DNA of 64,000 nt, taken from assembly GCF_000312385.1 (NCBI RefSeq), contig NZ_HE997626.1, positions 2,069,503 to 2,133,502 of the forward strand, given 5' to 3'. Position 1 is the first letter of the stretch; the number at the start of each line of letters is the position of its first letter. A program made the translations under genes and the position numbers. Below are positions 18,567 through 33,258 of this stretch, piece after piece. The DNA comes from Tsukamurella sp. 1534. Lineage in GTDB: Bacteria; Actinomycetota; Actinomycetes; Mycobacteriales; Mycobacteriaceae. The notes under the pieces were generated by a model that searched no databases, was not told the origin of the DNA, and saw only the letters and a list, made by a program, of their open reading frames with translations.

Positions 18567-18639
18567 GCCCCCTTCGTTTAGTGGCCTAGGACGCCGCCCT
18601 TTCAAGGCGGTAGCGCGGGTTCGAATCCCGTAGGGGGTA
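18567..18639 (+). tRNA. tRNA-Glu (anticodon TTC)
   Basis: 73 bases; acceptor GCCCCCT pairs with AGGGGGT, anticodon loop CTTTCAA within the stem CGCC/GGCG, T-arm GCGGGTTCGAATCCCGT, discriminator A, no encoded CCA. First of three closely spaced tRNA genes. The AT-rich stretch at 18475-18515 probably holds their promoter. Confidence 0.97.
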
Positions 18640-18664
18640 CGTCGCAAGACGCAAAATTGCATAT

Positions 18665-18738
18665 GGCCCTGTGGCGCAGTTGGTTAGCGCGCCGCCCTGT
18701 CACGGCGGAGGTCGCGGGTTCGAGTCCCGTCAGGGTCG
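18665..18738 (+). tRNA. tRNA-Asp (anticodon GTC)
   Basis: 74 bases; acceptor GGCCCTG with CAGGGTC, anticodon loop CTGTCAC, T-arm GCGGGTTCGAGTCCCGT, discriminator G. The bases CCA directly follow (18739-18741), so the 3' end may be encoded. Confidence 0.96.
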
Positions 18739-18786
18739 CCATCCGAGTTCTAGGACTCGGCGGTGACGGTACAGCCGGCATCGGAC

Positions 18787-18860
18787 GGCCAGGTAGCTCA
18801 GTTGGTACGAGCGTCCGCCTGAAAAGCGGAAGGTCGCCGGTTCGATCCCGGCCCTGGCCA
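18787..18860 (+). tRNA. tRNA-Phe (anticodon GAA)
   Basis: 74 bases; acceptor GGCCAGG with CCTGGCC, anticodon loop CTGAAAA, T-arm GCCGGTTCGATCCCGGC, discriminator A, followed by an encoded CCA (18861-18863). A terminator begins immediately after. Confidence 0.96.
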
Positions 18861-18864
18861 CCAA

Positions 18865-18918: not shown

Positions 18919-20190
18919 TCATCGCGATCGCGTGACCACGGAACCTCCTTGCGCCGGTGTCGCCCGATCTTCGGTCGGCGATGCGCCCATCGTGGCCGCG
19001 CGAGGCACCGTGAGGCATGCGATGCCTCCGATCAGCGCGACGACTCCGAACGCGACGGCGATCCCTCCGAACGTCGCCCCCGCGCCGAGCAACACGCCGC
19101 CCGCGAGGGGCCCCGTCACTGCACCTAGACGTCCGACACCCGTGGTGATACCGAGAGCCGATGCCCGAACCTGTATCGGATAATGCGTGGCGACGTAACC
19201 GAAGAGCACGATCTGAGTCCCGATCGAGCCGGCTCCGGCGAGCACGACGACGAAGTACATCACCGTTGTCGAAGGGGTCATCGCCATCCCGGCGATCGCT
19301 ACGGACGCGACGACGAAGTATCCCGCCGCGACCGTGCGATTGCCGAATCGGTCCGCCAGGGCCGCCCCGGCGAGCCCGCCGACGATGGCTCCCGCGTTGA
19401 GCAGTACCTGGAAGGTCAGCGCAGATCCCACGCTGTAGCCCGCGGTCCGCATCAGCTCGGGCAGCCAGGTGTTCAGCCCGAACACCAGCAGGAAGCCGGC
19501 GAAGTTGGCTGCGGCGAACAGGCAGAGCGTGAGCGCCGCCCTCCTGCTTCCGACGAGTTCGCGAAGCGCTCCTCGGTGGTTTCCTTCTGCGGTGGCGGCC
19601 GTCGCGGCGTGTGTCGTTTCCGGGATCACCCGCCAGGCCACCGGCACCACCAGGACGAGCGCCGACGCGCCGAGTGCCCACAAACCGCGGAAGCCCAGGT
19701 CGTCGCCCCACGTCAGCGCGAACACCGCGGCTATCACGCCGCCGACGGGCAGCCCGCAGAGCATCAGGGCGTTGAGGAGGTTCCGCTCCTGCGGCCGGGC
19801 GACCTCGACGACGAGCGCGATGGCGACCGGGGCGACACCGCCGAAACCGAGCCCCGCGAGGAATCGGAACACTCCGAGTAGCTCGGGGGTGGGCGCCAGC
19901 GCCACGGCGATCATCGCGACCGAGTACCAGATCAAGCAGGCCATGAACAGGCGGCGTCGCCCGAACCGGTCCGTGAGGGTCCCTGCGAGGATCGCGCCGA
20001 AGAACATGCCGAGCAGTGCGTAACTGCCGATTGCGCCGGCCTGCTGTTTCGACAGTGACCACGCGTCGTAATCCAACAATGCGGGCAGCGTCGAACCGTA
20101 GACGATCAGGTCGTATCCGTCGAAGACGATGGCGGCGAAACACACCGCCACCACGAAGAAGCGGCGATTCGAGTGGTCGTGGGGGTGCAT
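18919..20190 (-). CDS. Aromatic acid:H+ symporter, MFS/AAHS family
   Basis: A 423-residue major-facilitator permease with 12 predicted helices. The first helix carries FDGYDLIVYGSTLP, the D-G-x-D pattern of AAHS benzoate/hydroxybenzoate/gentisate transporters such as PcaK and BenK. The cytoplasmic loop 2-3 motif is TDRFGRRRLF and the repeated loop 8-9 motif is ADRFGNRTV. It is divergent from the aryl-acid ligase gene, and both read out of one control region. It is the likely uptake system for the catabolic island's acid substrate. Confidence 0.9.
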   Translation of the reverse strand: MHPHDHSNRRFFVVAVCFAAIVFDGYDLIVYGSTLPALLDYDAWSLSKQQAGAIGSYALLGMFFGAILAGTLTDRFGRRRLFMACLIWYSVAMIAVALAPTPELLGVFRFLAGLGFGGVAPVAIALVVEVARPQERNLLNALMLCGLPVGGVIAAVFALTWGDDLGFRGLWALGASALVLVVPVAWRVIPETTHAATAATAEGNHRGALRELVGSRRAALTLCLFAAANFAGFLLVFGLNTWLPELMRTAGYSVGSALTFQVLLNAGAIVGGLAGAALADRFGNRTVAAGYFVVASVAIAGMAMTPSTTVMYFVVVLAGAGSIGTQIVLFGYVATHYPIQVRASALGITTGVGRLGAVTGPLAGGVLLGAGATFGGIAVAFGVVALIGGIACLTVPRAATMGASPTEDRATPAQGGSVVTRSR

Positions 20191-20274
20191 GGGTATCGGG
20201 ACTCCTCAAGGGGCGGAAGGGCTTCGCGGCGAGACTCCTGAGATGCCGCTCTCCATGATCAAACGGCGAAAACC

Positions 20275-20304
20275 TTGCCTTGTCAACATTCATGTTGATA
20301 TATT
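20275..20304 (+). promoter_or_regulatory. Control region of the aryl-acid ligase and transporter genes
   Basis: TTGCCT (20275-20280), an 18-base spacer and TATATT (20299-20304) form a promoter that would start at the ligase ATG, 20312. The spacer contains a perfect 16-base palindrome, TCAACATTCATGTTGA (20283-20298). On the minus strand the same bases supply TTGACA (20286-20281) as a -35 for the transporter, 17 bases from TTTGAT. Similar CAACA-N4-TGTTG or TGTTGACA elements recur near 24421 and 29081. Confidence 0.7.
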
Positions 20305-20311
20305 GACTCGC

Positions 20312-22009
20312 ATGTCAACACCTACCTCTCGCCCGGCTCTCCCCCCTGCTGACGCCGGACTCGTGCCCTATCCGGCCGAGTTCGTGGCGAAGTACCGGGA
20401 ACAGGGCTACTGGTGTGGTCGCTCCTTGCCGGACGAACTTCTCGATGCCGCCGATCGCTTCGCCGACCGTCCGGCCCTCGTCACCCCTGAGGTTCGGTGG
20501 AGCTACTCCGATCTGGCGCGCAGGGCGCGGTCGTTCGCCTCGGGGATTCAGGCCGGAACCGACCTCGCCGTCGGCGAACCGGTGATGTTCCAGATGGGCA
20601 ATGTGGCGGAGACCCTGGTCGCCTACCTGGGCTCCCTCGTCGCGGGACTGCGCCCGGTGTGCACCCTCCCTCAGCACCGAGTCCGCGAGATCGGACTGCT
20701 TGCTCAGCATGTCGGTGCGCGCGCGTCCGTCTTGCAGGCGGATCACGGCCGAGGAGAGCCGGCGCAGGTCGCCCGCGAGCTTCACGCGGAGGGCGTGCTC
20801 GACACGATCATCGTCGCTCGGGGCGAGGCCATCGGCGGAGGCCCGACGTTGGAACAACTCGTCGCCGATGGGGCCGGCGGACCCGCGCCCGCGCCGGTGC
20901 ATCCCGAGCAGATCGCGGTGTACCAGCTGTCCGGCGGGACCACCGGACTGCCCAAGGTGGCGCCGCGACAGCACGAGGAGTACGTGTACAACTCTCGCGC
21001 ATGGGCGGAGGCGCTCGGTTGGGACTCCTCCACGCGAGTCCTCTACCCACTTCCGGTGATGCACAACGCCGGTATCGCGCTCGCGGTGCAGCCAGTACTA
21101 CTCACCGGCGCCACCCTGGTTCTCGCGCCCTCTGCGGCCGTCCCACCGTTGCTGGATCTGATCGAGGCCGAACGACCCGTGTCCCTTCCTCTCGTACCCC
21201 CTGCTCTGGCGGTCCGGATGCTGGAGGAGCCGCGGAGTCGTGGTGCGGATCTGAGCTGCATCACGCAGTTCATCGTCGGAGGACAGGCGCTGCCCGAAGG
21301 GGTCTCGCAGCGGTTGCGGGACGAACTCGGTATCGCCGTCATGCAGATGTTCGGGATGGCCGAGGGCATGTTCCTCGTGACGCCCGATGGGGCGGGAGAG
21401 GACGTGCGTCACCGCACCGTCGGGGCACCCGTGTCGGTTGCCGACGAGGTCCGAATCGCGGCGATCGGAAGCGACGATGAAGTCGCCGTTGGTGAAATCG
21501 GTGAGTTCTGCGCGCGCGGCCCGTACACGATCCGGGGCTACTACCGTGCTGCGCAGCATAACCGGGACGCGTTCAGCTCCGATGGCTTCTACCGCACAGG
21601 CGACCTCGCGCGCGCACACGAGATCAACGGCGTCCGGATGTACTCCATCGAGGGGCGAATCAAGGACGTGATCAACCGTGGTGTCGAGAAGATCCACGCC
21701 GAAGAAGTCGAAGAGATCATTCTGCGTCATCCGGATGTGGTGAACGCCGCGTTGGTCGCGATGCCCGATCCCGTGCTCGGTGAGCGCGCGTGTGCTTTCC
21801 TCATCCTCGAGCCGGGGGCTGCGGGGATCACGGTAGCGGCGCTGGGAGAGTTTCTGTTGGCGCAGGGCCTCGCGAAATACAAACTTCCCGAACGGGTCGA
21901 AGTGGTCTCCGAGTTCCCGCTCTCGAACGTCGGCAAGGTCTCGAAGAAGGACCTGCGCGAGAGGATCGCTGACAAACTGCGTGCCGATGCGGCCCGGGAT
22001 GCCCGGTAG
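20312..22009 (+). CDS. Aryl-acid adenylate-forming ligase (salicylate/dihydroxybenzoate-AMP or CoA ligase type)
   Basis: A 565-residue ANL-superfamily enzyme resembling EntE/DhbE and salicylyl-AMP/CoA ligases. The phosphate-binding loop is LSGGTTGLPK, A5 is near MFGMAEGM, A7 is YRTGDLAR, and A10 ends in PLSNVGKVSKKDL with the catalytic lysine. It activates an aromatic carboxylate with ATP, and transfer to CoA is likely because a CoA-ester-type hydroxylase follows 13 bases downstream. The frame is open upstream to 20129, but this part overlaps the transporter gene and the palindromic promoter; ATG 20312 is leaderless-compatible. Substrate among salicylate, anthranilate or a relative is not resolved. 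Confidence 0.88.
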   Translation: MSTPTSRPALPPADAGLVPYPAEFVAKYREQGYWCGRSLPDELLDAADRFADRPALVTPEVRWSYSDLARRARSFASGIQAGTDLAVGEPVMFQMGNVAETLVAYLGSLVAGLRPVCTLPQHRVREIGLLAQHVGARASVLQADHGRGEPAQVARELHAEGVLDTIIVARGEAIGGGPTLEQLVADGAGGPAPAPVHPEQIAVYQLSGGTTGLPKVAPRQHEEYVYNSRAWAEALGWDSSTRVLYPLPVMHNAGIALAVQPVLLTGATLVLAPSAAVPPLLDLIEAERPVSLPLVPPALAVRMLEEPRSRGADLSCITQFIVGGQALPEGVSQRLRDELGIAVMQMFGMAEGMFLVTPDGAGEDVRHRTVGAPVSVADEVRIAAIGSDDEVAVGEIGEFCARGPYTIRGYYRAAQHNRDAFSSDGFYRTGDLARAHEINGVRMYSIEGRIKDVINRGVEKIHAEEVEEIILRHPDVVNAALVAMPDPVLGERACAFLILEPGAAGITVAALGEFLLAQGLAKYKLPERVEVVSEFPLSNVGKVSKKDLRERIADKLRADAARDAR

Positions 22010-22022
22010 AGAGGACGACGAC

Positions 22023-23561
22023 ATGACCTGCAGGACGGTGGCGATCATCGGTGGCGGGCCCGCGGGCCTCGCTGCAGCGAGACTGATCAAGCTGCGCTCG
22101 CCGGATGCATCGGTGACGGTGTACGAGCGGGCCGACTCCAGCACGGGCACATTCGGATTCGGGGTCGGGCTGACCGAGGCGACGATGCGCAACGTCGCCG
22201 CGGTGGATCCTGATCTCGCGGAGCGCATGCGATCGGCGAGTCATGCCGGACACAACCTGGTGCTGCGCACCGATTCCGAGGAGGTGCACCTCCACGGCGC
22301 GCGGAACCTCGCCATCGGCCGGGCTATCCTCCTCGAGGTGTTGGCCGATGCCGCACGCGAAGTGGGAGTGAGCATCCGGATGGGCGCTCGAGTCGACGAA
22401 TCCGAGCTCGAGGCGGACGTGATCGTTGCGGCCGACGGCGCTCGCAGCGCCGTGCGGGAGAAGCTGCAAGCGGAACTGGGGGTCCACGTCGCGTACGGAG
22501 CGCTCCATTACATGTGGTGCGGAACCGATTTCGCGGTGGAGAACGCGCACTTTACGTGGCGTACCCGAGGCGACGGTCTGTTCGTGGTGCACGCGTATCC
22601 GTACACTGACGACCGCAGCACGTTCCTGATCGAAGTGGACGCACACACGTGGGAGAGCGCGCGGCTCGCAGAAAATCACCGCCAGGTGGCCCCGGGCGAA
22701 TCCGACCGACGCAGTCTGGACCTGCTCGAGGACGTCTTCTCCGACGAACTCCGCGGGCGCCCTCTGTTGGCGAACCGAACGCGATGGGCGCAGTTTCCCA
22801 CGGTCTCCCTCGACCGATGGTCCGCGGGCAATGTGGTGCTGCTCGGCGATGCCGCGCACACCGCGCACTACACGATCGGATCCGGCACCAAGCTGGCGCT
22901 CGAGGATGCGATCTCGCTGGCCGACGCGCTCGGCACCCACGCCGACGTCCGTGCAGCGTTCGAAGCGTACGAGGCCGCGCGGAGGCCCGGAGTGGAGAAG
23001 TTCAAGCACCTCGCCGCTCGCTCGCAGGCGTGGTGGTCCAGCTTCCGGGACCGTTCTGCGCGGAGACCGGAGGAGATCGCGTTGTCGTACATGACCCGCG
23101 CCGGCAACATCGGCGTCGCCGACTACGCCCGGGAGTACCCCGACAACGCGCGCATCGCTCTGGCGTACCTGGGTGACGCTCCGGTGCACGAGCTCGAACG
23201 ACTCGACGACTGGGTGCTGTCGCGGCCGCTCGAGACCGACGAGTTCTCGGCTCCTTCGCGGATCGTGAAGGTCGTCGATCTGCCGGAGACGACTGTTCGG
23301 CGGTGGCAGTGGACCGGCGGCGACGCGTGGAACGCCGAGCACGACGCGGCGGTCGAGGAACTGCGCGGCGCTGCGGAACGGATCCTGGTGCTGGGTGGCG
23401 ACGGCACTGCTGCATCGGTGGGAGCCAGGATCGACATCGCGGAACGGGTGCGCTGGGCCGGCCGGCACACGGTGGTGGTCGAGATGCCGGCCACGGCCCG
23501 TTCGGAGGCCGCGTCCGCCGTTGCCGCCCGTCGGGTCGACGCGGCGATCCTGACGGACTGA
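22023..23561 (+). CDS. FAD-dependent aryl-CoA hydroxylase (salicylyl-CoA/2-aminobenzoyl-CoA monooxygenase-like)
   Basis: A 512-residue class A flavoprotein monooxygenase. It has IIGGGPAGLAAARLIKLRSP (FAD), the FGFGVGLTEATMRNV segment that matches the FGWGVVFS region of salicylyl-CoA 5-hydroxylase and 2-aminobenzoyl-CoA monooxygenase, ADGARSAVRE, and LLGDAAHTAHYTIGSGTKLA for the second flavin/ribityl site. The C-terminal 130 residues extend beyond the simple hydroxylase fold. It follows the ligase gene by 13 bases with AGAGAGG upstream, so substrate activation and ring hydroxylation are probably consecutive steps. The position of hydroxylation is inferred only from family. Confidence 0.88.
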   Translation: MTCRTVAIIGGGPAGLAAARLIKLRSPDASVTVYERADSSTGTFGFGVGLTEATMRNVAAVDPDLAERMRSASHAGHNLVLRTDSEEVHLHGARNLAIGRAILLEVLADAAREVGVSIRMGARVDESELEADVIVAADGARSAVREKLQAELGVHVAYGALHYMWCGTDFAVENAHFTWRTRGDGLFVVHAYPYTDDRSTFLIEVDAHTWESARLAENHRQVAPGESDRRSLDLLEDVFSDELRGRPLLANRTRWAQFPTVSLDRWSAGNVVLLGDAAHTAHYTIGSGTKLALEDAISLADALGTHADVRAAFEAYEAARRPGVEKFKHLAARSQAWWSSFRDRSARRPEEIALSYMTRAGNIGVADYAREYPDNARIALAYLGDAPVHELERLDDWVLSRPLETDEFSAPSRIVKVVDLPETTVRRWQWTGGDAWNAEHDAAVEELRGAAERILVLGGDGTAASVGARIDIAERVRWAGRHTVVVEMPATARSEAASAVAARRVDAAILTD

Positions 23562-23646
23562 ATCGGTCGTGGTCGCCATCCGGCGGGCATCCCTGCCCGT
23601 GTGTCGGCGATCCGCTCGGGCGCGAGGGCAGGGGTACGGTGATTCC

Positions 23647-24342
23647 ATGCCGACGGCGGAGAAGACATCCAAGGGAGCCACGTCGAAGCGCCGAGAACTG
23701 ATCGTCAGCGAAGTCCTCGACGCCGCGACCGAACTGTTCGTGCAGAAGGGCTACGACGCCACGAGTCTGCAGGACATCGCGGACGCCGTCGGCGTCTCCC
23801 GTCCGGCGCTCTACCACTACCTCAGCAGCAAGGAAGACCTGCTCGTGATGTTGGTGGAAGGGGTGTCGCAGAGTCTCGCCGACGTGCTGAGCGAGTTGCG
23901 CGAGCGCCCCGATCTGGAGCCTGCGGAGAAGATCTCCCGAGTCACCGAGCAGCTTGTCCGCCAGCGGGTTCAGCACCCCGGCCGTTTCCTCATCCTGGAC
24001 AGGTCCGAGAGTGTCCTTCCGGAACCCGCCCGCACCGATCACGCGGAGGCCAAGCGACGCATCCTGCGTGAGGTCGTGACGATCATCGACGAGGGAGTGC
24101 GCGCGGGCGTGTTCGTGCCCACGGATTCCCGCACCGCAGCCCTCAGTCTCATCGGTATGTGCAACTGGGTCGCCTGGTGGGCACGGCCCGACGATGCGGC
24201 ACGGGTGGAGGCGATCGTCGCGACCGTGGACTCGCTCGTCGGCCGCATGCTGTGCATCCCCGCGCAGGAGGCGGCTGGTGGCGCTCCCGGCCTGGTCCAG
24301 GAGATTCGTGACCGGCTCGACCGGCTGGAGCCGTTGCTGTAG
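23647..24342 (+). CDS. TetR-family regulator of the aromatic island
   Basis: A 231-residue regulator with a strong TetR domain (AATELFVQKGYDATSLQDIADAVGVSRPALYHYLSSKEDLL, about 26-68) and a ligand domain of the TetR_C/KstR2-like type. TACGGT at 23635-23640 stands seven bases before ATG 23647, which suggests a separate leaderless promoter, though its -35 is poor. It lies centrally in the catabolic island and is the best candidate for the protein that binds the repeated TGTTGACA sites. A CoA-thioester effector would fit this subgroup but is inference. Confidence 0.88.
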   Translation: MPTAEKTSKGATSKRRELIVSEVLDAATELFVQKGYDATSLQDIADAVGVSRPALYHYLSSKEDLLVMLVEGVSQSLADVLSELRERPDLEPAEKISRVTEQLVRQRVQHPGRFLILDRSESVLPEPARTDHAEAKRRILREVVTIIDEGVRAGVFVPTDSRTAALSLIGMCNWVAWWARPDDAARVEAIVATVDSLVGRMLCIPAQEAAGGAPGLVQEIRDRLDRLEPLL

Positions 24343-24365
24343 CGCGATGCTCCGAACCACCGACT

Positions 24366-24391
24366 CGGCGGCCCCCATCTGGGGGCCGCCG
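24366..24391 (+). terminator. GC-rich hairpin terminator after tetR
   Basis: CGGCGGCCCCC (24366-24376) and GGGGGCCGCCG (24381-24391) form a perfect 11-base-pair stem with an ATCT loop, followed by TCGTGTTT. It separates the ligase-hydroxylase-TetR part from the maleate isomerase operon, which has its own promoter. Confidence 0.8.
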
Positions 24392-24420
24392 TCGTGTTTG
24401 CGGAACGCGCCGTGACGTGA

Positions 24421-24452
24421 ATGTTGACAATTCAACGGTAACGTCGAATACT
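24421..24452 (+). promoter_or_regulatory. Promoter of the maleate isomerase operon
   Basis: TTGACA (24424-24429), 17 bases and AATACT (24447-24452) make a canonical promoter, with a start near 24459. The -35 lies inside ATGTTGACA, and GTTGACAATTCAAC (24423-24436) is a 5-base inverted repeat. The same TGTTGACA element occurs at the ligase and SDR control regions. Confidence 0.7.
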
Positions 24453-24483
24453 GGTCGTGTCACCACCACCTCGGAGGAGCAGC

Positions 24484-25245
24484 GTGAACCACATGACCAA
24501 ACGCATCGGCCTGGTCGTCCCCAGCTCGAACGTCACCGTCGAGACGGAGATGCCACGAATCCTGGGACGGCATCCGGATGCCGAATTCACGTTCCACGCC
24601 AGCCGGATGCGCATGCAGAAGGTCTCACCGGAACAGTTGCGTGCGATGAACGCACAGCGGGAACGCTGCGTGATCGAGCTCGGTGACGCCGGTATCGATG
24701 TGGTCCTGTACGCATGCCTCGTGGCCATCATGTCGACCGGGCCGGGCGCGCATCGTGAGGCGGAGCTCGCAGTCGCGGAACAGCTCGCGACGGGGGGCTC
24801 CGAGGCGAAGGCCTTGTCGAGCGCCGGAGCGCTGGTCGACACGCTGAACGACATGGAGGCCGAGAGGGTCGCCGTCGTGACGCCGTACCTGCGGCCCCTC
24901 GCGGAGCTGGTGGTGGCCTACCTCGAGAACGAGGGGGTCGAGGTGTCGGACTGGCGCGCGCTGGAGGTCTCCGACAACGCGGAGGTCGGCTGCATCCCGG
25001 GTGACAGGGTCATGGAGGCGGCTCGGAGCCTGGACCTGACCGGTGTTGACGTCCTGGTCCTTTCGGCGTGCGTCCAGATGCCGTCGCTTGACCTCGTGCA
25101 GGCGGCGGAGGACGAGTTCGGAATCCCCGTTATCACGGCCGCGACGGCGGGCGCGTATCAGATCCTGCGGGCGGTGGACGCCCGCGTCGACATCCCAGGG
25201 GCGGGTTCATTGCTGCGTGCCGACGTGGCTCTGGAAGCCCCCTGA
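24484..25245 (+). CDS. Maleate cis-trans isomerase
   Basis: A 253-residue member of the Asp/Glu racemase superfamily, very like the characterised Nocardia farcinica maleate isomerase. It opens with KRIGLVVPSSNVTVETEMP and has both catalytic cysteines, C78 in LYACLVA and C196 in LSACVQMP, at the same 118-residue separation. It converts maleate to fumarate, feeding the TCA cycle. GGAGGAGC just upstream favours GTG 24484 over ATG 24493. It is the first gene of a four-gene operon with the VOC protein, a small protein and the hydrolase, so the pathway encoded here is expected to produce maleate. Confidence 0.93.
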   Translation: MNHMTKRIGLVVPSSNVTVETEMPRILGRHPDAEFTFHASRMRMQKVSPEQLRAMNAQRERCVIELGDAGIDVVLYACLVAIMSTGPGAHREAELAVAEQLATGGSEAKALSSAGALVDTLNDMEAERVAVVTPYLRPLAELVVAYLENEGVEVSDWRALEVSDNAEVGCIPGDRVMEAARSLDLTGVDVLVLSACVQMPSLDLVQAAEDEFGIPVITAATAGAYQILRAVDARVDIPGAGSLLRADVALEAP

Positions 25246-25267
25246 ACGAACCGGAAGGAGCGAGGGT

Positions 25268-25915
25268 ATGACTGAACACGATGAGGCGCACAGGGTCCGT
25301 GGGGTGGACCACGCCGCGTTCCCGACTTTCGACCCGGTGGGCACTGTCAGGTTCTATCGGGACGTGCTGAAGTTCCCTGTCGTGCACTCTATCTGTGCCG
25401 CGGGATGGGGCCCGGAGAAGCATCCGGACTTCATTCACTTCTTCTTCGACATCGGCAATGGCGACCGGATGGCGTTCTTCTACTACTTCGGACTCGAGCC
25501 CTACGGGGATCAGTCCGCCCCGGGCGATTCGTGGGCGAGGTTCGCCCAGGACGTGCCTGTGTTCTTCCGGAATTCGCGCCACCTGGCGATACACGTGGAC
25601 AGTGAGGAAGACCTACTCGAATACCGTCGGCGCCTGGACGAGTCCGAGTGGCCCTGCGAGATGCAGGTGATGCACGAGACGATCGAGTCGATCTACACGC
25701 ACGACCCCAACGGGTACATGCTGGAGATCACTCGGGCGCTTCGCCCCGTGACCGCGCAGGAGGACCTCGACGCTCAGCTCACCCTGGACGCCCTGTGCGA
25801 CGTGGTGACGGCGGGCTCCGCCTCGCTCGACTCCCTGTTGACTCGCAAGGCCGAGCTCATCGTGGAGAGGGCGGAGTCGTGGGCGCGAACGCACGCGGTG
25901 GAGGTGGAACGGTGA
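25268..25915 (+). CDS. VOC-fold metalloprotein, candidate ring-cleaving dioxygenase
   Basis: A 215-residue protein. Residues 10-155 form a vicinal-oxygen-chelate unit with a full set of candidate metal ligands: H15 in GVDHAAF, H105 (or H109) in RHLAIHV, and E153 in DPNGYMLEI. This is the 2-His-1-Glu arrangement of type I extradiol dioxygenases and related glyoxalase-fold enzymes. The DPNGYMLE strand in particular resembles extradiol enzymes. A helical C-terminal tail of 60 residues is extra. GGAAGGAG precedes ATG 25268. Located between maleate isomerase and a hydrolase, it is the only oxygenase-like candidate for ring opening in the island, but it could also be an isomerase or lyase. Confidence 0.78.
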   Translation: MTEHDEAHRVRGVDHAAFPTFDPVGTVRFYRDVLKFPVVHSICAAGWGPEKHPDFIHFFFDIGNGDRMAFFYYFGLEPYGDQSAPGDSWARFAQDVPVFFRNSRHLAIHVDSEEDLLEYRRRLDESEWPCEMQVMHETIESIYTHDPNGYMLEITRALRPVTAQEDLDAQLTLDALCDVVTAGSASLDSLLTRKAELIVERAESWARTHAVEVER

Positions 25916-26157
25916 GCAGGTTGTACGTGCTCGACGTCCCCGAGAACGAGGGTGTGGTCAAGGTGGCGTCCGCGGATCGCGCGGTGACGGTGGACAGGGT
26001 AGGACCGTACTTCCGGTTCTCGGCGGACGGAGACATCGAGATCGACAGGCGAGCCACCGGATGCCGGCATGCGGTGTGGTACAGCGCCGTTGCGGGCCTG
26101 GAGGGCTCGAAGATCGTTCAGCACGACAAGAACGCACTCCGCGTGGTGGCGCGATGA
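25912..26157 (+). CDS. Small conserved-looking protein in the maleate operon
   Basis: An 81-residue protein of mixed beta character (LYVLDVPENEGVVKVAS, then YFRFSADGDIEIDRRA) that I do not recognise. The GTG start overlaps the VOC stop by four bases (GTGA), and its stop overlaps the hydrolase ATG by four, so it is tightly coupled on both sides. That coupling is the main support for it being a real gene. No signal peptide, membrane segment or cysteine pair suggests a redox or export role; residue C51 is the only cysteine. Confidence 0.7.
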   Translation: MSRLYVLDVPENEGVVKVASADRAVTVDRVGPYFRFSADGDIEIDRRATGCRHAVWYSAVAGLEGSKIVQHDKNALRVVAR

Positions 26158-27383
26158 GCTTCGGCGAGAGGGTGGGAGCGGGGCGGTACCTGAGTGCCGA
26201 CGAAGCGCCGGCCGAGACCACGGTGACCGCACACGAGCTCACCACGTCCGACGGGGCCACTGTGGCGGGGCTGTTGCGCACGGTGCCGGGAGCGACGGCT
26301 GTGGCCTTCCTCATGCACCCGCGCAACGACTTCAGCCACCACGTACTGGTGCCGGAGTTCCTGCGTCGCGGCGTCGCGGTATGGACGCAGGGCAGCAGGA
26401 CGATGGGAAACGATCTGACGCTGCTCCACGAACAGGCGCTGTTGGACATGGCGGCGGGCCACGTGTTCCTCCGGCACGGCGGATTCGAAACCGTGATCTC
26501 CGTGGGGCATTCGGGCGGCGGCGCCCTTGCTGCGTTCTACGCCGAGCAGGCCGGGCTGGCACCGTCGGAGAGGCTTGTGGCCACTCCCGGCGGGAAGCCG
26601 GTGTCCCTCGCCGATGCCGAGATGCCGCTCGCCGACCTCATGGTGTTGATGGCACCGCACCCCGGGCAGGGCGAATTGCTGCTGCGCCTGATCGACCCGT
26701 CCGTGACGGACGAGGCAGACCCTCGCTCGGTGGACCCGGCGCTGAACCTGTACTCGGAGGAGAACGGGTTCGCCCCGGCGCCGCAAACGAGTTCCTATTC
26801 CCCCGAGTTCCTGGACCGCTACCGGGCGGCGCAGCGCGCGCGGGTCGCGCGGATCGACGCCGTCGCGCGCGAGCGGGTGGCCCGCGCGCGCGAGGCGCAG
26901 CGACGGTACAAGAAGACCGGGGAGCCGGCAGACCGCCGGGATGCGCTCTCGACCGAGCTGATCACTGTGTACCGCACGGACGCCGACGCGCGGTGCGTCG
27001 ATCTCAGCCTGGATCCCAATGACCGCCCGTACGGCTCACTGTTCGGGTCGCGTCCCGACCTCACCGACTACGGCGTCGTCGGTTTCGGCAGGCTGACCAC
27101 GCCCGAGGCGTGGCTGTCCACGTGGTCGGCCCTGAGCAGCCGTGCAGGTTTCCTCCGGTGCGCACCCGCTGTCCGGGTGCCTACGCTGTTCATCGAGATC
27201 ACCGGCGATCAGGCCTGCTTTCCCTGCGATGCAGCGGCGATGGTCGACGCCATCGGGACCGACCAGGTGCGTCATGTTCGAGTGCGGGGCAAGCACTTCG
27301 GTGCGGCGCTCACTGCGGAGGAGCCGACCGCGGCGGTACTCGCCGGCGCCGAGATCGAGAGCTGGTTGCAGGACGTGACCTGA
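26154..27383 (+). CDS. Alpha/beta hydrolase with large insertion
   Basis: A 409-residue alpha/beta hydrolase. The nucleophile elbow is GHSGGG with S120; a likely acid is the aspartate in ITGDQACFP and the histidine is in RGKHFGAA near the C-terminus. Between residues about 140 and 330 lies a large insertion including a charged helix rich in Arg/Ala (about 225-260), much longer than a normal cap domain. It is the last gene of the maleate isomerase operon. A hydrolase acting on the ring-cleavage product or on a CoA thioester to release maleate would fit the context; this is inference. Confidence 0.82.
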   Translation: MSFGERVGAGRYLSADEAPAETTVTAHELTTSDGATVAGLLRTVPGATAVAFLMHPRNDFSHHVLVPEFLRRGVAVWTQGSRTMGNDLTLLHEQALLDMAAGHVFLRHGGFETVISVGHSGGGALAAFYAEQAGLAPSERLVATPGGKPVSLADAEMPLADLMVLMAPHPGQGELLLRLIDPSVTDEADPRSVDPALNLYSEENGFAPAPQTSSYSPEFLDRYRAAQRARVARIDAVARERVARAREAQRRYKKTGEPADRRDALSTELITVYRTDADARCVDLSLDPNDRPYGSLFGSRPDLTDYGVVGFGRLTTPEAWLSTWSALSSRAGFLRCAPAVRVPTLFIEITGDQACFPCDAAAMVDAIGTDQVRHVRVRGKHFGAALTAEEPTAAVLAGAEIESWLQDVT

Positions 27384-27398
27384 ATCCGTGCGGTACGA

Positions 27399-27432
27399 GA
27401 AGCGCCCATGTCCGGCTGGACATGGGCGCTTC
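27399..27432. terminator. Bidirectional terminator between hydrolase and aldehyde dehydrogenase
   Basis: GAAGCGCCCATGTCC (27399-27413) and its perfect inverse (27418-27432) form a 15-base-pair stem with a GGCT loop, placed in the 69-base gap between two converging genes. Confidence 0.85.
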
Positions 27433-27452
27433 CGCGTCGGTGGATCGGGTTC

Positions 27453-28925
27453 CTACTGGGGAGCGACCTGCGCGTACAGCTTGGTGTCCTGGAACTCGGT
27501 GATGGCAGTCGGACCGCACAACAGGCCGTATCCACTCTGCTTGAGGCCTCCCTCCTCGAACGCCTCGTGGATCACGCCCCAGCAGTTGGTCCAGACGAAC
27601 CCGGCACGCATGTTGCGGGTCACGCGGCGCGCGCGCCACTCGTCGGTCGTGAACACGGCGGCGCCGAGACCGAAGGACGTGCCGTTCGCCAATCGCACCG
27701 CGTCCGCCTCGTCTTCGAAGATCTCGAAAGTCTGTACTGGGCCGAACAACTCGTCCTGCACGAGAGGTACGTCCAGGCGATCGACCTCGACCAGGCTCGG
27801 CTGGTAGTACGCCCCACCGGGGCGATCGGCGTCGTCCACGACGCCACCACGGACGAGGATGCTTCCATACGACGCCGCGGCCGCGACGATACCGTCCACC
27901 CGCTGCGCACTCGCGGCATCGATCAACGGACCGAGGTCGCTGGTCGGGTCCTCGCTCGGACCCACGCGGAGGCCGCTCAGAGCCTCGACGATCATGGGCC
28001 GGAGTTTGTCTGCGATGCTGCGCTGGACCAGGAGCCGGGATCCGGTGAGGCAGAACTGACCGTTCATCAGCGTGCACGCCGCCACGACGTTCTGCATCAC
28101 CACGTCGAGGTCGGCGTCGTCGAACACGACCAGCGGTGTCTTGCCGCCGAGTTCGAGACTCAGCCGTTTGAGTGTGTCCGCGCCCGCCTTGGCGATGGCA
28201 CGACCGACATGGGTGCTGCCGGTGTAACTGATCATATCGACGTCGGGCGAGTCCACCAGCGCCGGAGCGACGGCGTTGCCGCCTTCGGTGAGGATGCTCA
28301 CGACCCCCGCGGGTATGGACGTGGTCTCTGCGATCACCTCGGCGACAAGGGTGTTGGTGAGGGCCGTCTGGCCCGGCATCTTCACGACCATCGTGCAGCC
28401 GGCGGCCAGTGCGGGCCCGATCGATCGCATGGACAGGATCACCGGTGAGTTCCACGGCGTGATGATGCCGATGACTCCCATCGCCTCGCGGCCGGTCTGG
28501 AAGTACACGCCGGGTGCGACCTCGGACGCCCGCCCACCGTCCAGGACGATCGCCGAAGCGGCGGCGTAACGGAGCCAGTCCACGGTCGTGGACACCTCCC
28601 ACTGAGTCTCTCCGATCCGCTTCCCGTTCTCGCGGGACAGGCTCAGCGCGATCTCGTCCACGCGCCGCTCCAGATTGTCGGCGAGCTCACTGATGGCGCG
28701 GGAGCGGCGCCGGGGATCGCGGGACCAGTCGGTCTCATCGAAAGTCCTGCGCGCCGCCTCGATCGCGATGCGCGCCTCGGGTTCGCCGGCATCGGCGTAG
28801 GTCCCGATGCTCCGGCCCGTCGAGGGATTGATGGTCTCGAGGCGATCGCCGGCGTCGCTCCATCGCCCTGCGATGAGGTTACGGCCGACCGATTGTGATG
28901 TCGCGGTGATGGAGTCGGTTGTCAT
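27453..28925 (-). CDS. NAD(P)-dependent aldehyde dehydrogenase
   Basis: A 490-residue ALDH-superfamily enzyme. It shows ITPWNSPVIL, the cofactor-binding SYTGSTHVGR, the general base glutamate in LELGGKTP, and the catalytic cysteine in NGQFCLTGSR. The C-terminal ELFGPVQTFEIF is also typical. It oxidises an aldehyde to a carboxylic acid, here probably the aryl aldehyde that precedes the acid activated by the ligase at 20312. ATG 28925 is chosen because AAGGTGA is five bases upstream; GTG 28934 is also open. It is divergent from the SDR at 29174 across a region carrying TGTTGACA-like operators. Confidence 0.9.
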   Translation of the reverse strand: MTTDSITATSQSVGRNLIAGRWSDAGDRLETINPSTGRSIGTYADAGEPEARIAIEAARRTFDETDWSRDPRRRSRAISELADNLERRVDEIALSLSRENGKRIGETQWEVSTTVDWLRYAAASAIVLDGGRASEVAPGVYFQTGREAMGVIGIITPWNSPVILSMRSIGPALAAGCTMVVKMPGQTALTNTLVAEVIAETTSIPAGVVSILTEGGNAVAPALVDSPDVDMISYTGSTHVGRAIAKAGADTLKRLSLELGGKTPLVVFDDADLDVVMQNVVAACTLMNGQFCLTGSRLLVQRSIADKLRPMIVEALSGLRVGPSEDPTSDLGPLIDAASAQRVDGIVAAAASYGSILVRGGVVDDADRPGGAYYQPSLVEVDRLDVPLVQDELFGPVQTFEIFEDEADAVRLANGTSFGLGAAVFTTDEWRARRVTRNMRAGFVWTNCWGVIHEAFEEGGLKQSGYGLLCGPTAITEFQDTKLYAQVAPQ

Positions 28926-29059
28926 GGGGTTCACCTTTCATGCGTACGAGCCGGTGCACTGGACACCGCCGTCTGTGGAATGGGAATGGCACCGATCCGC
29001 GTTCGACGCGCGTGCGCGCCGTGTGACCCGTGACACTTCCGGACCTCAGCCTGACCCAT

Positions 29060-29121
29060 TTCAACATCAATGTCAATTAACCAACAATACTGTTGACAGT
29101 TGCTCAGTCGCGACTTAGTGT
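29060..29121 (+). promoter_or_regulatory. Divergent control region, SDR promoter with two operator-like elements
   Basis: TTGACA (29093-29098), a 17-base spacer and TAGTGT (29116-29121) form the SDR promoter. Overlapping its -35 is CAACAATACTGTTG (29082-29095), a CAACA-N4-TGTTG inverted repeat of the same form as the palindrome at 20283-20298. A second related element, TCAACATCAATGTCAA, lies at 29061-29076, nearer the aldehyde dehydrogenase gene. Confidence 0.7.
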
Positions 29122-29173
29122 TGCGATCGTCGCCCGTCGGAGAGGCGTGGCAGTCAACGAAGGAGCAACGGAC

Positions 29174-29926
29174 ATGGGTTCTGTCGAAACGCACGCGGGG
29201 CGGGTTGCAGTAGTCACGGGCGCAGGTCAGGGCTTCGGCCGGGCGATCGCCGTGGAACTCGCCCGACGGGGTGCAGACGTCGCGGTGATCGACCTCAACG
29301 ACGCGTCGGAGACGGTGGCGGAGATCGAGGCGCTCGGCACGCGTGCGATGGGCGTGCAGGCCGACGTCGCCCAGCCGGATTCCGTCGCTGCTGCGGGGGA
29401 GGAGATCTGCGGATCGTTCGGCCACGTCGACATCCTCGTCAACAACGCCGGGGTGTATCCGTTCCGAGACTTCTTCGACGTCGACTTCGACTACTGGCGC
29501 ACGATCCAGGCGATCAACCTGGACTCGCAGTTCCTGACGGCGCGTGCTTTCGCCCCGTCGATGCGGGATCGCGCGTGGGGGCGGATCGTCAACCTGGCAT
29601 CGAATTCGCTTGGCCTGGCGGTGCCCGCGCTCTCGCACTACATGGCCAGCAAGGGCGGGGTCGTCGGCTTCACCCGTGGTCTGGCGACCGACCTCGCGCC
29701 GTACGGCATCACCGTCAACGCCGTGGCGCCGACGGCCTCACGTACCCCCGGAGGGGAGGCCAACATCGCCGGCGACGTCCTCGACGGCGTCGCATCGATG
29801 CAGGCGATCAAGCGCGGTGGCGTGGCCGCTGACATCGTGGGCACAGTCTGTTTTCTCAGCAGTGACGACAGCGCATTCGTCACCGGGCAGACGATCATGG
29901 CGGACGGCGGCCTCGTCCGCCTGTGA
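29174..29926 (+). CDS. Short-chain dehydrogenase/reductase
   Basis: A 250-residue classical SDR with cofactor motif VTGAGQGFGRAIA, NNAGVYPF, an active-site YMASK (Tyr and Lys), and the C-terminal FVTGQTIMADGG. An aspartate after beta-2 (VIDLND) favours NAD(H). AAGGAG precedes ATG 29174. Divergent from the aldehyde dehydrogenase and sharing its control region, it probably carries out the preceding alcohol-to-aldehyde oxidation, or handles a dihydrodiol-type intermediate. Confidence 0.9.
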   Translation: MGSVETHAGRVAVVTGAGQGFGRAIAVELARRGADVAVIDLNDASETVAEIEALGTRAMGVQADVAQPDSVAAAGEEICGSFGHVDILVNNAGVYPFRDFFDVDFDYWRTIQAINLDSQFLTARAFAPSMRDRAWGRIVNLASNSLGLAVPALSHYMASKGGVVGFTRGLATDLAPYGITVNAVAPTASRTPGGEANIAGDVLDGVASMQAIKRGGVAADIVGTVCFLSSDDSAFVTGQTIMADGGLVRL

Positions 29927-29948
29927 CGCTCGCTGGCGGCCGCCCGGG

Positions 29949-30746
29949 TCAGCCTCCGCTCGTGTCGGTCCGGTAGCGGCTCGGGGTTGTACCGGTATGG
30001 CGTCTGAACGATGTCGCGAAGTGGCTGGCGCTGGAGAAGCCCGTGACACGGCCGATCTCCGCGACCGACAGGGTCGTCGTGCGCAGGAGGTGCCGGGCTC
30101 GGCCGATGCGTTGTGCAAGGACGAATTGATGCGGCGTCGTGTGGAAGGTCGCCTGGAACGCGCGGCCGAACTCGTCGGCGTGCATCTCCGCGACGTCGGC
30201 GAGGGCTTGCAACGAGGCGGACCCGTCCGGATCGTCGTGGACGCGCTCGAGGACCCGTTGTTGCACTTCGGGCCTCAGTACGCGAGCCGCCCGGTGCTGG
30301 GCCGGGCGGCGCCGGCCGTACACGTCGACGATGTGAAGGTGCAGTGCCTCGATCAGCGTGTCATGCAGTAGTCGGCCCGCGGGATCTGTTCGGGCGGCGG
30401 TACTCGCGATTCGTTCGATCATGTGGTGTACCAGCCGGTCCTGCTTGCCTGCAGACGCTTGGAGCTCCAGCCGCGTCGTGGACGACGTCGGGATCACGAT
30501 CCGGGCGAAATCGCACGAGACATCGCAGGCTGTTGCTGCGGATCTGACTCCCGCGGGGACCACCCACACGTGGCCGGGGGCCGGGGTGAACCTACCTGTC
30601 GGTCCCTGTTCGAATTCGTACTCCTTCGACCTGGCCGTTCCGCGGCGCCAAACCAGGACTTCGTGATTCGTGCCAGCGGAGTGCCATACCGTCGATTTCG
30701 AGAACCGCTGGCGCACGAAAGTGACATCCAGTGAAGGCATCATCAT
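29949..30746 (-). CDS. AraC-family transcriptional regulator
   Basis: A 265-residue regulator with an N-terminal cupin-like sensing domain (about 1-130, including PAPGHVWVVPAGVRS) and a C-terminal double helix-turn-helix (about 165-262: LADVAEMHADEFGRAFQ, then FSSASHFATSFRRHTGTTPSRYR). Three consecutive ATG codons (30746, 30743, 30740) can start it and no ribosome site is clear. It closes the aromatic island, converging on the SDR with a 22-base gap. It is a likely activator responding to the aromatic substrate. Confidence 0.9.
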   Translation of the reverse strand: MMMPSLDVTFVRQRFSKSTVWHSAGTNHEVLVWRRGTARSKEYEFEQGPTGRFTPAPGHVWVVPAGVRSAATACDVSCDFARIVIPTSSTTRLELQASAGKQDRLVHHMIERIASTAARTDPAGRLLHDTLIEALHLHIVDVYGRRRPAQHRAARVLRPEVQQRVLERVHDDPDGSASLQALADVAEMHADEFGRAFQATFHTTPHQFVLAQRIGRARHLLRTTTLSVAEIGRVTGFSSASHFATSFRRHTGTTPSRYRTDTSGG

Positions 30747-31191
30747 CGCAGAGTAGTCGTTGTCGACCGGGGTGACTCGTCGGAGTCGGGGTTGCGTTTG
30801 TCGCCATAGGAGTCCGGCTCCTCCGTGTTCGGGCCGGGGCGCAATCGGGCGGCATCTTTGTAGGCAATCGAACTGTTCACTATTTGCGTCACCAACTCGC
30901 TCTCGAGGGCATGTGGTTATGGGTGAGCCGAGATATGTTAGGAGGGGCAAATTTTCGCGTTCTTGGAAGAGGGGGCGGCGTGGATACAGGGTCGTCGGTC
31001 GCGAACGTGACACCCGGCGATCACCGGTGGTGGTGCGACTACGTCGATGAACCCGCCGGAGTGGCAGCGCTGTGATCGCCGTCGTCGCGCGCGGCGGTTT
31101 CGCAGGACCCGGCGTGGCCGGGAGCGTATGCCGGTGATGCCACGCTCGGCGTCGGACCACGCGAGATAAGAACCAAGGAAAGGGAAATGCT
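30747..31191. other. Intergenic region without a supportable gene
   Basis: About 445 bases between the AraC gene and a lipoprotein gene. Short open frames exist (for example 30884-31075 on the plus strand) but none has a ribosome site plus protein-like composition. The part 30870-30960 is AT-richer than its surroundings and may carry the divergent promoters. AAGGAAAGGGAAATG just before 31192 is the lipoprotein's ribosome site. Confidence 0.5.
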
Positions 31192-32484: not shown

Positions 32485-33018
32485 TCAGGCGGAGAAGGCC
32501 GCTGCTCCGGCGGGCACCGGGCCGACGGCGCCGGCCAGGACGAGCTGCGACAGGTACTCGTCGAAGGTCGGGGCGACGAGGGATTCGATGCCGCCGTCGC
32601 GGCGGTCGGTGTCCACGACGACGACCGACGGTGCGGTCCGCAGCCCGGTGTCGTCGGCGGCCGATCGCCGGTAGTCGAGGCAGAGGTCCCAGTGGCCGCC
32701 ACCGTCGAACGGGATGAGCCACTCCGCGCCGTCGGGGGACGGGGCGAAGGTGGGGTCCGTGTGCCACCACGCGCCCTTGCGGATCGCCCAGAACCCGGGG
32801 CCGATCCCGCGGATCACGCTGTGCGGAACGTCGAAGTTCCGCGGCGCGGGGAAGGTGAAGCGGGTGAGTCCGCCGTTCTGGATTCCCAGGGCCCCGACGA
32901 GCGGTTCGGGCAGGCGAACGCCCAGCTCGCGCTCGGTCTCGCGCAGCGCCTCGACCGTGAGCATCGGCTGAAGGTAGCCGTCGAGCGGCGGGTGCTGCCA
33001 GAGTCGCCAGAGATCCAT
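32485..33018 (-). CDS. SMI1/KNR4 family protein
   Basis: A 177-residue SMI1/KNR4 (SUKH-type) protein. Typical features are the ETERELGVRLPEPLVGALGIQNGG segment, the WLIPFDGGGHWDLCLDYR core and a C-terminal FDEYLSQLVL helix. SUKH proteins commonly neutralise polymorphic toxins. No toxin is encoded in the window. ATG 33018 is chosen because AGGA lies eight bases upstream; ATG 33027 is alternative. The longer open frame to 33219 is not protein-like. Confidence 0.85.
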   Translation of the reverse strand: MDLWRLWQHPPLDGYLQPMLTVEALRETERELGVRLPEPLVGALGIQNGGLTRFTFPAPRNFDVPHSVIRGIGPGFWAIRKGAWWHTDPTFAPSPDGAEWLIPFDGGGHWDLCLDYRRSAADDTGLRTAPSVVVVDTDRRDGGIESLVAPTFDEYLSQLVLAGAVGPVPAGAAAFSA

Positions 33019-33258
33019 ACCCGCCATCCTACTTTGCCCGCATGAAGATTCTGTGGAGGCGAGCGAGTGTTGATCGAAATGTTGACGATTTGATGTATGC
33101 GGGTGTGACGATCGGTCGACGTGAGGCGGTGTTGTGGCCTCGGACTCAGTCCGGGCCTGTGCCGGAGTCCGGTATCCCCGGTGTAACGAGTGTGTGGTGG
33201 TTGCCGAACCAAAGCACATGGCGTGCCGTTCGAGCGCGCTCCTCGTGGAGGTGGACGC

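Follow-up and report, generated by a model that had tools for sequence, protein, structure and literature searches.

A predicted MmoB/DmpM-fold effector accompanies a putative ring-cleaving VOC protein in an aromatic-acid island of Tsukamurella sp. 1534

How might a bacterium open an aromatic ring and release maleate when its catabolic cluster lacks the usual ring-opening enzymes? The question is raised by an island in a 64,000-nucleotide stretch of the 4.5-Mb genome of Tsukamurella sp. 1534 (the window; NZ_HE997626.1, positions 2,069,503 to 2,133,502), where genes for aromatic-acid activation and hydroxylation lie beside genes for a maleate cis-trans isomerase (MAI; 24493..25245, + strand), a putative ring-cleaving dioxygenase of the VOC family (VOC; 25268..25915, +; PF00903), an 81-residue protein with a GTG start (U81; 25912..26157, +) and an alpha/beta hydrolase with a long helical insertion (ABH; 26154..27383, +; gene starts were chosen among in-frame codons). 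An initial annotation had suggested that the VOC protein, the 81-residue protein and the hydrolase together cleave the ring and release maleate. Every gene it named was found in place, its statement that the cluster holds no cupin or FAH protein agreed with a Pfam scan of ten island proteins (0 of 10), and its core idea is partly supported as the best reading by sequence comparison of ~90 loci. On balance, we judge it probable that the island is a regulon for an ortho-hydroxylated, salicylate-like aromatic acid, whose ring would be opened by VOC with U81, with maleate released by ABH and converted to fumarate by MAI. What is chiefly new is that the VOC protein has a partner with an effector fold.

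The 81-residue protein had been described as an unknown; it is present, it goes with VOC, and an MmoB/DmpM effector fold is recognisable in it. Its structural model (pLDDT 97.7) gave Foldseek and VIA matches to the predicted effector fold, profile alignment (hhalign) gave 92% probability against 11 true MmoB/DmpM members, and PF02406 matched 11 of 20 aligned U81 proteins (best E 2.9e-4), the window's own not among them. The U81 frame overlaps those of VOC and ABH by 4 nt each, and elsewhere VOC and U81 are joined in a single polypeptide, as in Variovorax VAI-C (293 aa, with E 1.6e-8 for the U81 part) and related locus L110 (E 0.001), or occupy single open frames (Caballeronia NK8, Cupriavidus metallidurans CH34 and genome G610). 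Among 289 genomes of the class that includes a Sphingomonas metagenome-assembled genome (MAG), all six VOC matches of at least 59% identity carried a U81 stretch, fused in one and adjoining in five; matches below 45% identity ended before the U81 part, the longest of them, with internal stops, reaching residue 239. A Neorhizobium match covered residues 9-271 of a fused VOC-U81 protein at 30% identity. As judged from these sequences, the partner of U81 is VOC.

In diiron monooxygenases, the use of O2 and substrate is controlled by effector proteins, MmoB and T4moD among them. A search for the diiron hydroxylase family PF02332 found none in the window genome, in a run whose 14-genome control was also silent; the same search in 34 related genomes, hand-chosen from the genomes of the 80 loci described below and all carrying the module, found it in 19 and not in 15. 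Since neither the window genome nor these 15 gave a PF02332 match, U81 should be independent of a diiron hydroxylase there, provided that the assemblies are complete. We propose, as part of the best explanation, that U81 is distantly related to the MmoB/DmpM effectors of diiron monooxygenases but works for a VOC oxygenase with a mononuclear metal site, either as a separate protein or fused to it. We know of no other oxygenase with such an effector protein, and open PMC papers yielded no non-diiron oxygenase with an MmoB-type effector.

VOC itself looks like a ring-cleaving enzyme by sequence. It has the 2-His-1-carboxylate site and signature His and Tyr of type I extradiol enzymes: the presumed metal site (His15, His105 and Glu153, with its role assigned by analogy) is invariant in 24 aligned proteins, and His136 and Tyr143 are further signature residues. 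An extradiol signature (a PS00082-like pattern) was present in 78 of 80 VOC relatives, with one match in 8000 shuffles, and at 3 of the 27 PF00903 places of the window genome, namely the island VOC, one weak place and one that, by its motif, we take to be a steroid-type extradiol enzyme. The nearest solved structure by profile, 9u42, is titled only 'Glyoxalase'.

The wider distribution of the module was assessed by scanning 84,980 species genomes with ABH as the query, which found 162 relatives, of which the best 80 were kept; the resulting counts thus describe close relatives of the window ABH and, being based on tblastn with set bit-score limits and on loci some of which are cut by contig ends, are lower bounds. 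Within these 80 loci we found VOC in 80, U81 in 79, a TetR regulator in 78, the aryl-acid ligase (LIG) in 77, MAI in 69, the flavoprotein hydroxylase (FMO) in 68, HyuB in 47 and HyuA in 46. In the window's class, 41 of 296 sampled genomes had some ABH match and four (the window's own included) had one above 50% identity, all four with VOC and U81 beside ABH; in another class, that of the Sphingomonas MAG, the count was 6 of 289 genomes. The closest ABH relatives (84% identity) lie on two Dietzia contigs, and plasmid copies occur in Caballeronia, Variovorax, Cupriavidus, Tistrella, Pseudosulfitobacter, Rhodococcus, Streptomyces, Tsukamurella and Mycobacterium, in records where VOC bears only the label 'VOC family protein' and U81 only 'hypothetical protein'. 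Mirror-tree correlations, calculated with no species-tree baseline, were 0.90 for VOC-U81, 0.91 for VOC-MAI, 0.95 for LIG-FMO and 0.69 for VOC-LIG, and for ABH 0.89 with FMO, 0.87 with LIG and 0.83 with VOC; these sequence-derived trees appear to link VOC with U81 and LIG with FMO, with ABH not clearly placed with VOC. Some copies were rearranged: a Gordonia lacunae contig (L091:8300-21206) carries two VOC-U81-ABH copies ~10 kb apart in opposite orientation, and a Mycobacterium avium plasmid (L121:1235-17876) carries a copy split around an IS256-like element, with a P450 and reductase, VOC-U81 and a FAD oxidoreductase on one side and FAH, a second VOC, a thioesterase, ABH and a ligase on the other.

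For ABH, the presumed triad Ser120-Asp352-His381 is invariant in 25 aligned sequences (L036, whose ABH frame looks broken, was left out of alignment A4, used for folding), and a G[HNI]SGG elbow is present in 77 of 80 relatives. A search of the ABH sequence against the PDB gave nothing useful, and its model (pLDDT 91.7) matched the folds of generic esterases, lipases and thioesterases, so that ABH may be either a C-C hydrolase or a thioesterase. The ABH family is wider than the module, as 26 short loci (L005-L030) hold relatives at 30-39% identity and no VOC, U81 or MAI match. Outside the usual arrangement, L119:8370-11923, on a Variovorax PBL-E5 plasmid from linuron-contaminated soil, carries a related VOC-ABH pair without U81, plus a FAD oxidoreductase and a small DUF2783 protein, and is possibly a sister ring-cleavage module.

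Upstream in the proposed route lie LIG, an aryl-acid AMP ligase or CoA ligase of o-hydroxybenzoate type (20312..22009, +), and FMO, a salicylyl-CoA 5-hydroxylase-like flavoprotein (22023..23561, +). The four best PDB matches of LIG are aryl-acid ligases (E 5e-110 to 5e-102); its HN pair, which we take to be aryl-acid pocket residues, aligns with the HN of 1md9, PchD and the 5wm2 salicylate ligase, and a P..HN motif occurs in all 76 of the 76 ligases from related loci. The best PDB match of FMO is VioD. The window FMO has ~145 C-terminal residues beyond its FAD_binding_3/NF006101 match (residues 6-364), and a Variovorax FMO of 378 aa is shorter by about that length. The ligases and hydroxylases of the related loci fell into two activation classes: the window class (24 loci), in which 11 loci also had an esterase or a close copy of ALDH or SDR and three had Hyu, and a second class (52 loci), in which HyuA or HyuB (hydantoinase/oxoprolinase, PF01968/PF02538; for example, L037:3578-8032 and L061:1-4151) was found in 45. 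At the other end of the route, MAI matched PDB 2xec with 365 bits over 247 residues (E 1e-108; 4fq7, E 2e-61), and both catalytic cysteines that had been reported for it are present (Cys75 and Cys193, the second being the one replaced in 2xed).

Around these genes, the MFS-to-SDR stretch looks like one regulon, because an exact palindromic operator (an inverted repeat, TCAACAT-NN-ATGTTGA; 20283..20298) precedes LIG, between it and the divergent MFS gene, and recurs imperfectly between ALDH and SDR (29061..29096; sites at 29061 and 29081, with two and three mismatches). Three matches with at most three mismatches were observed against 0.31 expected, and none of 100 shuffles reached three. Of 11 related loci scanned, six (L031, L032, L033, L034, L036 and L056) had the operator at their own ligase with one or two mismatches, three (L039, L045 and L060) had three-mismatch sites only, and two (L040 and L041) had no site. 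The remaining genes of the stretch encode an MFS transporter of the aromatic acid:H+ symporter type (18919..20190, -; TIGR00895, 248 bits with cut-off 418.55; MhpT, 228 bits with cut-off 410), a TetR-family regulator (23647..24342, +; PF00440 and PF17932) and, peripherally, an aldehyde dehydrogenase (ALDH; 27453..28934, -; PF00171) and a short-chain dehydrogenase (SDR; 29174..29926, +; PF13561; pyridoxal 4-dehydrogenase-like NF047923, 240 bits with cut-off 325), close copies of which occurred in 4 (ALDH, at least 600 bits) and 7 (SDR, at least 250 bits) of the 80 loci. A 15-bp perfect inverted repeat in the convergent ABH/ALDH interval (27399..27432) is a possible terminator, and an AraC-family regulator gene (about 29949..30797, -; PF12833) follows SDR. 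Island GC content (0.67) is lower than in the flanks (0.70 and 0.71). Genes for tRNA-Glu, tRNA-Asp and tRNA-Phe (18567-18863) stop 55 bp short of the MFS gene; the idea of a tRNA-linked island was rejected, since no repeat of at least 14 nt from the three tRNA genes occurred elsewhere in the window and no att-like repeat was found. To the right of the island, a SUKH (SMI1/KNR4, PF09346) protein, of a family known for immunity proteins, is encoded at 32485-33219 among neighbours with no Pfam match.

The observations comprise gene content, conservation, VOC/U81 overlap and fusion, the predicted fold of U81, intact presumed sites and the lack of the island operator at a chromosomal gentisate operon described below, all drawn from sequence and structure comparison, and from them we infer the substrate, the metal, the ring-cleavage chemistry, the CoA level and the role of U81. 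The substrate would most likely be salicylate or a close relative, made from an alcohol or aldehyde by SDR and ALDH. LIG would convert the acid, with ATP and CoA, to a CoA thioester, and FMO would hydroxylate position 5, para to the first hydroxyl, giving a gentisyl-CoA-like hydroquinone, whose ring VOC with U81 would cleave beside a hydroxyl. By analogy with the role proposed for effectors in diiron enzymes, U81 may lie over the active site of VOC and keep O2 away before substrate has bound. ABH would then split a maleyl ketone into maleate and a C3 unit, with CoA released directly or indirectly, and MAI would isomerize maleate to fumarate. With somewhat less than even confidence, we propose that VOC-U81 is a two-component ring-cleaving oxygenase with a recruited or fused diiron-type effector, which opens a dihydroxyaryl-CoA and so takes salicylate-type acids to maleate without gentisate. 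Retention of LIG in 77 of the 80 loci would count for the CoA level, as would its presence in three genomes (those of L046, L048 and L086) that have LIG, VOC, U81, ABH and MAI and in which the best genome-wide FMO match reached just 28, 24 and 40 bits, compared with 155-716 bits for FMO-like genes in other genomes of the same comparison. The genomes of L042, L043, L103, L107, L066 and L088 had an FMO-like gene elsewhere, and no FMO was present in loci L054, L062 and L072, which are truncated on the FMO side.

Several findings weigh against this reading. LIG and FMO score far below the curated cut-offs for the named families nearest to them (LIG, 422 against 724 bits for TIGR02275, the DHB/salicylate-AMP ligase model; FMO, 286 against 1078 bits for NF006101, with the monooxygenase half of the 768-aa model matched only). 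Pfam gave no match to the window's own U81 up to E 10, searching the window genome with PF02406 gave nothing up to E 1 and so missed U81, and the U81 profile matched only T4moD chains in the PDB, at a non-significant E of 0.27-0.33. The L110 VOC is without the signature His, L109 breaks the signature at one position, and MAI was not matched in 11 of the 80 loci. The argument from FMO-less genomes involves three genomes, one of them a MAG, in which a non-homologous hydroxylase is possible. In addition, the ligase or FMO is adjoined by a hotdog thioesterase in L109, L117, L118, L123, L124 and L126, all six of them proteobacterial loci (PF13279 in the two scanned), an annotated thioesterase gene precedes ABH on the M. 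avium plasmid, and a gentisyl-CoA thioesterase of hotdog fold is known (PMC516016). Because thioesterases adjoin the module in some loci and such an enzyme is known, ring cleavage may, by analogy, use the free acid: a thioesterase, in the cluster in Proteobacteria and mostly elsewhere in Actinobacteria, would free gentisate, VOC-U81 would be an alternative gentisate dioxygenase and ABH a maleylpyruvate hydrolase, yielding maleate and pyruvate through known chemistry. However, the L118 thioesterase query matched just one of the 80 loci (Sphingomonas; other thioesterase families were not sought), LIG persists in the three FMO-less genomes, where it would be pointless if the acid were freed again, and in Streptomyces chartreusis a canonical set beside the module would be redundant (plasmid L127:4116-14391, outside the 80, with cupin, FAH, MDMPI and transposase genes followed by MAI-VOC-U81-ABH-ligase), so that we regard the free-acid route as rather unlikely. 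We are similarly doubtful that the acid activated by LIG is another aryl acid with an o-hydroxy or o-amino group (for example, a hydroxypicolinate, hydroxynicotinate or anthranilate relative) on whose ring VOC-U81-ABH act; aryl-acid ligases of the LIG type accept such acids, and the Hyu genes of the second activation class, like amidase and nitrilase genes near the module copy of Variovorax VAI-C, could mean a lactam or amide precursor, but neither an amidase-type nor a NicX-type family appeared in the Pfam scan of the ten island proteins, salicylyl-CoA 5-hydroxylase is the nearest match of FMO, and the ALDH, SDR or esterase genes of the window class fit salicylate alcohols and esters.

The VOC fold also includes epimerases, glyoxalases and FosA/B, and oxygenase activity of VOC is predicted only, so that VOC could instead follow a different oxygenase in the route as an epimerase or isomerase, with U81 a stabilising subunit only; the near-constant extradiol signature, which is rare among the PF00903 places of the genome, the lack of another ring-cleaving candidate among the ten Pfam-scanned proteins and a U81 fold that is otherwise that of oxygenase effectors make this improbable. 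Least likely, in our view, is an ordinary CoA-mediated gentisate pathway in which the island makes gentisyl-CoA or gentisate, a distant operon finishes the route and VOC-U81-ABH are accessory. The initial annotation had named a cupin gentisate dioxygenase (GDO) and FAH hydrolase elsewhere in the genome, co-regulated with the island, as one finding that would tell against it. Such genes exist (C1:837081-838933; with MDMPI, C1:837-840 kb), adjoining a 3-hydroxybenzoate 6-hydroxylase (6-monooxygenase)-like gene and an IclR regulator, but no island operator with up to three mismatches occurs in the 19 kb around them. This set would take 3-hydroxybenzoate via gentisate to fumarylpyruvate and should yield no maleate, leaving MAI idle. 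The chromosomal GDO scored 267 bits, below the cut-off of 442, as did all hits in the 34 module-bearing genomes; a GDO match of at least 190 bits was absent from 12 of these, which speaks against the ordinary pathway, and present in 22, the latter including the three FMO-less genomes (313, 253 and 254 bits for L046, L048 and L086), which is a further point against the favoured reading. Single GDO, FAH and MDMPI queries matched none of the 80 loci by tblastn; on the M. avium plasmid, outside the 80, an annotated FAH lies near the module. A CoA-mediated gentisate route through salicylyl-CoA is described in PMC13215587, and open PMC papers included no title describing the present cluster, which subscription papers may describe.

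If the proposed role of VOC-U81 is correct, an effector that travels, overlaps and fuses with a VOC protein would mean that control of this kind is transferable to another type of metal centre, in small soluble or fused versions that would be easy to study. The known ways of cleaving the ring would also gain an oxygenolytic one, which may act on CoA thioesters and occurs here and there in numerous actinobacterial genera and in some Proteobacteria.

Compared with known systems, the island resembles the SdgA-SdgC type of Streptomyces WA46, which we take to be a salicylate CoA-mediated gentisate pathway, in its ligase and salicylyl-CoA 5-hydroxylase-like FMO, but its cluster has VOC, U81, ABH and a maleate isomerase and no cupin GDO, FAH or MDMPI. 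With the hybrid aerobic CoA pathways (benzoyl-CoA Box, phenylacetyl-CoA Paa and 2-aminobenzoyl-CoA) it would share CoA activation before oxygenation; in these pathways, epoxidation or reduction is followed by hydrolytic ring opening, whereas the proposed route cleaves the ring oxygenolytically by VOC. HbzF belongs to the FAH family, and its reaction and the island route would have maleate as a common product, whereas ABH is a serine alpha/beta hydrolase and not FAH-type. The name HbzF is given to a maleylpyruvate hydrolase in PMC11705938. VOC shares with type I extradiol and hydroquinone dioxygenases of the VOC fold (BphC) the fold, the presumed 2-His-1-Glu site and the signature His and Tyr, and differs from BphC-type enzymes as a 215-aa protein with a single VOC domain, an effector-like partner and a substrate that is likely a hydroquinone, perhaps a thioester; LinE and PcpA, which we take to be hydroquinone dioxygenases of the VOC fold, are a further comparison. 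Finally, U81 differs from the MmoB, DmpM and T4moD effectors of bacterial multicomponent monooxygenases in genomes where, as in that of the window, no diiron hydroxylase was found, and in having as its partner a VOC protein, sometimes within the same chain.

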